47,242 bases of DNA from Halorientalis regularis (lineage in GTDB: Archaea; Halobacteriota; Halobacteria; Halobacteriales; Haloarculaceae): positions 1 through 47,242 of the forward strand of contig NZ_JALJCL010000020.1 in assembly GCF_023698535.1 (NCBI RefSeq), in the 5' to 3' direction. Position numbers and translations under genes: made by a program. Within the stretch, counting starts at the first letter, position 1. Every line of letters starts with the position of its first letter. The notes under the pieces are model-generated. The model worked only from the letters and a program-made list of their open reading frames with translations. It was not told the origin of the DNA and searched no databases. Of the stretch, positions 46,721 through 47,242 are shown piece by piece.

Positions 46721-46754
46721 GTGTGTGGTGTGGTGTGTCGAGGTGTAGTGCGGA

Positions 46755-46779
46755 CCGCCCGGCACCAGTCAGTGGGCGG
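46755..46779 (-). other. Leader hairpin before argG
   Basis: CCGCCC (46755-46760) and GGGCGG (46774-46779) form a 6-bp stem 35-60 bases before the argG ATG. It could be part of leader regulation, but on its own it is weak evidence. Confidence 0.3.
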
Positions 46780-46822
46780 TTCGAGACGAAACGACCGTGG
46801 GTGAAGTGGGAATGAGGTGGGC

Positions 46823-46921
46823 CTAACGGGCCCGTCGTCGGAACCGCGGCGGTCGCGGAAAAAGGTGGACGGACCCACCGGTCTCGCCCGCCAGCGAGCC
46901 GGCTCCGTGGATCCGTGTCAT
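46823..46921 (-). CDS. Arg-rich leader ORF upstream of argG
   Basis: ATG at 46921 opens 32 codons ending at TAG 46823-46825. The start lies 23-34 bases after TTTTAATAC-containing sequence, the spacing of a leaderless transcript, so ribosomes would begin on this frame at the 5' end of the mRNA. Six of its last ten residues are arginine (RPPRFRRRAR). A hairpin with a T5 tract lies in its middle. Arginine is the end product of the genes behind it. This would fit attenuation by arginine availability but the frame may also be chance in GC-rich DNA. Confidence 0.45.
   Translation of the reverse strand: MTRIHGAGSLAGETGGSVHLFPRPPRFRRRAR
46829..46843 (-). other. Hairpin over the stop of the argG leader ORF
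   Basis: GGGCC and GGCCC flank the leader stop (minus strand GGGCC-CGTTA-GGCCC, about 46819-46835), so ribosome progress through the last Arg codons would open it. The 5-bp stem is short and its role is unknown. The coordinates given are approximate. Confidence 0.25.
46859..46902 (-). terminator. Possible attenuator in the argG leader
   Basis: On the minus strand GGTGG and CCACC enclose six bases and are followed immediately by TTTTT (plus positions 46859-46879). An upstream hairpin (CCGG...CCGG with TCGC/GCGA inside, 46878-46902) shares two bases with the 5' arm of the terminator stem, so the two cannot form fully at once. That mutually exclusive layout is the core of classical attenuators. 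Confidence 0.4.
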
Positions 46922-46943
46922 GTACTCGCCACTACCGGAGATT

Positions 46944-46955
46944 CGTATTAAAACC
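46944..46955 (-). promoter_or_regulatory. Promoter of the argG leader
   Basis: The minus strand reads GGTTTTAATACG here, a good haloarchaeal TATA box. It is centred about 28 bases before the leader ATG at 46921, the usual distance for leaderless transcripts. No comparable TATA is seen between 46822 and 46721. Confidence 0.55.
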
Positions 46956-47076
46956 TTCCGAGATACCGAGCCCGTGGCCCACGGTGACACACCCCTGGTT
47001 CCGGACAGCACGTCCGTTCCGGGCCACGATACCGACGGCCACAATCCCTTTGCCCCCGTCGATCACAGGTCCCGAC

Positions 47077-47118
47077 ATGAACCTCCGCGGCGCGCTCGAC
47101 ACCGACGACCTGCTCATA
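47077..47118 (+). pseudogene. 5' fragment of a small DUF7554-like membrane protein gene, cut by an IS
   Basis: ATG at 47077 reads MNLRGALDTDDLLI and then runs into foreign sequence that stops after six more codons. The opening resembles haloarchaeal DUF7554-type proteins, in which an acidic D-x-D-D-L-L start leads into a hydrophobic helix. The break is at TA (47117-47118), the target preferred by IS630 elements. CCCTTTG about 28 bases upstream is a likely TATA. The other half must lie beyond the element. Confidence 0.6.
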
Positions 47119-47119
47119 C

Positions 47120-47242
47120 TCAAGGACATAAGTACGTGAAGATATTCGGAGGCTCGATGTCATCAAGCGCAATGAGTGCAGCCTCACGAAGTTCATCTAA
47201 TGTGTCGAAGAGACGGTTTCCAAGAGACTGATCGAGCCGTCG
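47120..47242 (-). mobile_element. Transposase C-terminal fragment, probably IS630-type
   Basis: The minus strand has an open frame from the window edge to TGA at 47120-47122, giving 40 residues that include GNRLFDTLDELREAALIALD and end PNIFTYLCP. This resembles the C-terminus of haloarchaeal IS630-family DDE transposases (NRxFxTLDELxxA). The stop lies a few bases from the presumed element end, and the adjoining dinucleotide is TA. The family call is from memory of short motifs; the catalytic residues lie outside the window. Confidence 0.55.

Follow-up and report, generated by a model that had tools for sequence, protein, structure and literature searches.

An arginine-rich leader ORF upstream of argG, conserved across the order Halobacteriales and probably a leader-peptide regulator of the arginine operon

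The window, i.e., the whole stretch of 47,242 nucleotides of Halorientalis regularis that was analysed, carries on its reverse strand an operon of arginine genes that begins with argG. The genes argG, argH and argX were identified by Pfam and the remaining operon genes by reading their translations. Upstream of argG lies a short open reading frame, referred to here as the uORF, together with a promoter and several potential RNA helices (P1, P2 and P3). The features are as follows:

about 46960-46954, reverse strand: BRE-like sequence CGGAAGG, adjoining the TATA box
46946 to 46953, reverse strand: TATA box TTTTAATA, 32 nt 5' of the ATG at 46921, spaced for a leaderless uORF transcript
46823 to 46921, reverse strand: putative leader peptide uORF MTRIHGAGSLAGETGGSVHLFPRPPRFRRRAR, 32 codons plus TAG (46825-46823)
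46907 to 46915, reverse strand: P1 5' arm CGGATCCAC, uORF codons 3-5, 9 bp with the P1 3' arm
46870 to 46878, reverse strand: P1 3' arm GTGGGTCCG, in the middle of the uORF, pairing with 46915-46907
46826 to 46840, reverse strand: terminal Arg codons CGA CGA CGG GCC CGT (RRRAR), the proposed sensor
46819 to 46833, reverse strand: P3, stop-codon hairpin with the sequence GGGCC-CGTTA-GGCCC
46798 to 46818, reverse strand: pyrimidine-rich, G-poor stretch 3' of P3
46785 to 46797, reverse strand: candidate P2 strand CGGTCGTTTCGTC, which can pair with the Arg codons, imperfectly in this genome
45404 to 46723, reverse strand: argG, first gene of the operon (Pfam match)
argG to about 37609, reverse strand: operon argG-argH-lysW/argW-argX-argC-argB-argD-argE-argF

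The comparison set comprised 135 leaders from nine families. Within the Haloarculaceae, 100 primary argG loci in 19 genera were usable, having a recognised start and sufficient upstream sequence, and all of them have the element; its stop codon lies 61-200 nt upstream of argG. Of the 40 regions taken from families f2-f11, 36 were usable, which leaves out the divergent families f6 and f8, and 35 of these, representing eight further families of the order, contain the element with a uORF of 23-50 codons and its Arg end at the hairpin; the single locus missed by the pattern (G233) has a similar layout by eye. A covariance model built from the Arg codons and the hairpin matched 58 of 59 genomes of the order at E ≤ 0.5, with the best match just 5' of argG in nearly all of them and no convincing second copy. 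It gave no match in 50 genomes of the phylum outside the order, where a GC-rich haloarchaeal model may miss distant forms. The Arg-rich ORF ending, for which an earlier note on this DNA had proposed a comparison of related genomes, is thus conserved order-wide. In two Haloarcula-group genomes (G015, G023), diverged second copies of argG occur without the leader.

The TATA box had been described in the earlier note as spaced for a transcription start at the uORF ATG, and both the box and its spacing proved to be conserved. The arrangement TCTCGGAA..TTTTAATA is kept in 8 of 8 congeners, 32-33 nt 5' of the uORF ATG, and a TATA score of at least 6 was obtained ahead of 121 of the 135 uORFs (12% by chance), the most frequent distance to the ATG being 32 nt. 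Judging from this spacing, transcription probably starts at or beside the uORF ATG. A proximal TATA box of argG itself was found at 5 of 100 Haloarculaceae loci, which is below chance; with no second promoter for argG in this family, the leader probably belongs to the argG mRNA there. In three other families argG has its own proximal TATA box (7/7 in f2, 3/3 in f4 and 6/7 in f5), so that the leader cannot be the sole route there. This second promoter has a GAATTTAA box about 30 nt 5' of the argG ATG. Ahead of the box lie a T-rich stretch and a conserved motif, GGTTAGC..CCGCTC, which could be an operator or a leader-RNA terminator. The uORF's own promoter, as well as the separate argG promoter in these three families, would also suit an independent small-protein or small RNA gene that lies ahead of argG by chance, and the same ambiguity was raised by Babski et al. 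for uORFs of Haloferax volcanii (PMC4983044). However, such a gene would not be expected to occur as a single copy that is strictly linked to argG throughout the order, nor with argG lacking any other promoter in the Haloarculaceae, and the unconstrained peptide body and the matching of amino acid and gene in four systems, both described below, make this explanation quite unlikely.

The reading frame of the uORF was evaluated first within the genus and then across the family. The eight Halorientalis genomes have uORFs of 29-49 codons whose lengths differ by multiples of three; despite insertions of 45 and 51 nt in congeners, the frame shared with the stop-codon hairpin stays open in all of them, and all eight congener uORFs end in an Arg run overlapping CGACGAC.GG.CCGTTAGGCCC. 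For the family test, the ATG was set from the TATA box alone, blind to frame. Among 87 Haloarculaceae leaders, the distance from the ATG to the hairpin takes 22 values between 68 and 164 nt, yet 74 leaders share one common frame and a further 7 differ by a hairpin that starts one base earlier, so that the frame was preserved over at least 17 length changes. The remaining 6, all from Natronomonas, are frame-shifted, with the ORF end still just past the hairpin (...RPRRAGRPE or similar). The distances from the hairpin to argG, in contrast, fall into all three frames (37/35/15).

The 32-codon, Arg-rich ORF ending in TAG that the earlier note had pointed out is therefore not peculiar to this genome and goes well beyond chance, its frame and Arg tail being conserved in the 135 leaders of the nine families. 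At least two Arg residues are present among the last 10 codons in 135 of 135 leaders, with a mean of 4.7 in frame as opposed to 1.6 and 0.4 in the other two frames. The codon CGA accounts for 404 of the 630 leader Arg codons (64%), while it makes up 10% of the Arg codons in 26 ORFs of the window and is absent from argG, argH and argX. The caution expressed earlier, that Arg codons are common in GC-rich DNA, is answered by this contrast between frames together with the preference for CGA.

The body of the peptide behaves differently. When close relatives are compared, the differences within the uORF body are distributed over codon positions 1, 2 and 3 as 111/134/130, and 76 synonymous changes stand against 65 expected, a slight excess that is much like that of the other frames. 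No protein-level selection on the uORF body was found in this comparison, a result that speaks against a functional small protein. The residues following the Arg run vary as well (PGR, PGL, PGSF, RALF, PGLLAH, RAGRPE). Since frame, Arg tail and stop codon are kept but the peptide body is free, the pattern is the one expected of a leader peptide, and a small protein or an arrest peptide would predict otherwise. Arrest by the nascent chain deserves consideration because the Arg residues stand right at the stop codon, which itself lies inside a hairpin; an Arg-rich chain could sense free arginine and stall the ribosome at the stop, as does the fungal arginine attenuator peptide (the arg-2/CPA1 uORF), likewise an arginine-related uORF 5' of an arginine gene. 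The fungal peptide acts through a conserved nascent peptide sequence, whereas the argG leaders keep only Arg codons and frame, and, judged by the codon-position changes and the variable C-terminal residues, contain no conserved arrest sequence. The preference for rare CGA codons and the runs of Phe, Trp and Ile/Leu/Val in parallel leaders also fit codon supply better, and we therefore consider nascent-peptide arrest unlikely.

The stop codon of the uORF is enclosed by P3, which is found throughout the Haloarculaceae leaders. In Halorientalis it reads GGGCC-GTTA-GGCCC, with the TAG in the loop and 3' arm, the loop of the present genome being CGTTA. Some genera have a loop longer by 3 nt (GTTTC-TAG, CTCTTC-TAG), which keeps the frame. 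Within the order, the arms occur as GGGCC/GGCCC, GGGGTC/GACCCC, GGGGC/GCCCC and CGGCC/GGCCG, and Halorussus has both the second and the third of these. The score of the stop-spanning stem is 14.8, as opposed to 6.6 for shuffled sequences and 1.0 at argG gene stops, a contrast that is somewhat inflated as the leaders were chosen partly by hairpin pattern. Pair counting on a MAFFT alignment gave no covariation signal for P3, since the pairs are mostly invariant and the variants with a loop longer by 3 nt are misaligned; the explicit arm variants were used instead. Beyond P3, the sequence is poor in G and rich in C and T but has no T-run: the 25 nt 3' of P3 contain 40% C, 26% T and 11% G in the 135 leaders, and the uORF 32% G. 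As a near-perfect palindrome, GGGCC-N-GGCCC could be thought of as the DNA operator of a repressor instead of an RNA hairpin. This is most improbable, considering that it would lie about 90-100 nt downstream of the inferred transcription start (68-164 nt across relatives), that the loop length ranges from 4 to 8, that the arms change together, and that a stop codon is placed in or just past the palindrome.

Helix P1 is formed between the start of the uORF and its middle part. In a swap test comparing pairing energies with the own and with swapped partners, P1 reached 8.3 standard deviations across 52 genera; the eight pairs of control segments all stayed within 2. A helix of at least 6 bp can be formed in 125 of 135 leaders, and P1 shows strong covariation. 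P2, the pairing of the Arg codons with a strand downstream of P3, reached 3.4 standard deviations, weaker than P1, and arm variants occur within one genus (g11: GGCGACCG/CGGTCGCC, CGCGACCG/CGGTCGCG, GACGACCG/CGGTCGTC); its support is modest. The earlier note had placed the hairpins elsewhere. Its GGTGG (46879-46875), CCACC (46868-46864) and T5 (46863-46859) are indeed present, but the hairpin with its T5 is not conserved and does not exceed chance: in 3 of 135 uORFs a hairpin runs into T4 or more, likewise 3 of 135 for T5 or more, and this structure, rejected as a terminator, is peculiar to the present genome. GTGGGTCCG has its conserved partner in the uORF start, not in CCACC. Nor is the overlapping upstream hairpin, proposed as attenuator partner, conserved; P1, P3 and, more weakly, P2 are conserved instead. 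Of the compensatory changes expected among relatives, those in P1 are strong and P3 has its arm variants, but none of this applies to the hairpins originally named. A further candidate, P4, immediately 5' of argG, was suggestive by eye, but its fold z-scores, with a mean of only -0.8, are not significant overall and it is not claimed; in the window (46780-46754), a hairpin or H-type pseudoknot CCGCCC..GTCGGGT..GGGCGG..ACCCGAC is possible, as in many Haloarculaceae genera.

The three conserved helices could also belong to an RNA-only element, either an arginine riboswitch or a protein-binding RNA, in which the ORF is incidental. However, the distance from ATG to hairpin varies widely and still keeps frame, while that from hairpin to argG does not, and the loop around the stop codon changes in 3-nt steps. 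Among the arginine-responsive and other RNAs of Rfam 15, which would likewise be leaders before arginine genes, no covariance model matched the leader up to E = 1. This explanation is accordingly very unlikely.

Five other genes (pheS, trpS, ilvB, trpC and hisG) were checked upstream in relatives for leaders with cognate codons. The pheS leader is MASEPHCRSVVRQGVPRAGFDFFFAV in this genome and ends in ...GFGFFFA-stop in other families, with FGFFF adjoining the stop; at 26 codons, it is as long as the uORF that was mapped ahead of H. volcanii pheS (PMC4983044). This leader occurs in several haloarchaeal families. The start of its uORF, CCGAACCC, is able to pair with GGGTTCGG, where the Phe codons begin. 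A stop-spanning hairpin in pheS leaders does not exceed shuffled sequences. The trpS leader reads MAASDGWRWRWRTSEADSLATPAAR and related forms (WRWRW), likewise ahead of a second trpS paralog; here, the uORF start pairs with AGCGGACA 3' of the Trp codons, and several of these leaders have a stop-codon hairpin. The Ile/Leu/Val-rich ilvB leader MTARAGPGSAPDPSGALVILAGIVGAL (ALVILAGIVGA) has the same layout as argG, in which Ile/Val codons are directly followed by GTAGGGGC, a loop with the stop codon, and GCCCCTAC. No cognate leader was found in the upstream regions of trpC and hisG of relatives. Around the start region of trpC, a leaderless gene, there are conserved half sites resembling GTACA/TGTAC, suggesting control by a DNA-binding regulator rather than a leader peptide. 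The four cognate pairs of amino acid and gene are the strongest argument for the sensing of codon supply.

Taken together, the element is probably a cis-acting leader-peptide regulator of argGHWXCBDEF that senses the supply of arginyl-tRNA through the position of the ribosome on the Arg codons, and the leader-peptide reading put forward in the earlier note is strongly supported by the frame, the rare cognate codons, the position and the Phe, Trp and Ile/Leu/Val parallels. Ribosomes would translate the uORF without an untranslated leader and arrive at rare CGA codons that abut P3 with its stop codon and that may pair alternatively with the downstream P2 strand. With ample Arg-tRNA, the ribosome would reach the stop codon and depart, allowing P2/P3 to fold. 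If Arg-tRNA is scarce, it would wait on the Arg codons, masking P3 on its 5' side as well as the Arg strand of P2 and leaving the downstream RNA in another state that permits argG expression. The proposed direction, a rise in argG under arginine shortage, is suggested by physiology. P1, P2 and P3, which are supported to different degrees, may be mutually exclusive structures. As output, we lean towards premature termination of transcription, hairpin- or FttA-type, over control of argG translation. In H. volcanii, little translational coupling is seen at stop-start spacings above 30 nt, with a range of 30-40 nt (PMC12548453), hairpins without long T-runs terminate transcription, with 59% for one tested (PMC7237163), and archaeal FttA termination has a suggested sensitivity to ribosome coupling (PMC11616081). 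Since the spacing between the uORF stop and argG exceeds the coupling range and such precedents exist, premature termination is favoured. The lack of a conserved canonical U-tract terminator in Haloarculaceae leaders counts against an attenuator.

Like the bacterial ribosome-mediated attenuators (trpL, hisL, leuL, ilvL/ivbL, pheM), the element combines a short leader and cognate codons ahead of a biosynthetic or tRNA-synthetase gene for the amino acid concerned, helices that overlap the codons, rare cognate codons, which are a known trait of bacterial attenuators, and an unconstrained body. It differs in its leaderless start without a Shine-Dalgarno sequence, in a main conserved hairpin that holds the stop codon, in the missing conserved U-tract terminator in Haloarculaceae, and in the archaeal transcription machinery. 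To our knowledge, an argG leader of this type is not known in bacteria. For H. volcanii, small ORFs in long 5'-UTRs with mapped transcription starts have been listed, including those of pheS (26 aa) and a trpS (23 aa) (PMC4983044, Table 2); they are listed as small acidic peptides, argG is not among them, and no attenuation is proposed in the accessible part of this article. PMC10219788 makes the general statement that regulation by uORFs through attenuation extends to archaea, without an example in the part accessible. Searches of the open-licence literature turned up neither an argG leader nor any account of haloarchaeal leader-peptide attenuation and, as far as we found, no established example of such attenuation in Archaea; as the searches covered open-licence articles, the novelty is provisional.

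It is reasonably likely that haloarchaea possess an order-wide class of leaderless leader peptides matched to the amino acid of the gene behind them (argG-Arg, ilvB-Ile/Leu/Val, trpS-Trp, pheS-Phe), several with a stop-codon hairpin. This would represent archaeal ribosome-mediated attenuation without the bacterial U-tract terminator, perhaps via haloarchaeal hairpin or FttA termination. Archaeal regulation has mostly been described via DNA-binding regulators; if the cognate set is real, transcription-translation coupling would serve regulation in Archaea, coupling and factor-dependent termination could be tested directly in a genetically tractable group, and amino-acid supply would join the signals that haloarchaea read through their ribosomes.

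At the contig edge beyond the promoter (47078-47242), the window contains a small divergent ORF (MNLRGALDTDDLL...) that appears intact in congeners and is apparently cut here at about 47110. The end of the interrupting sequence recurs in at least 5 other contigs, i.e., an insertion-sequence end at the contig edge.
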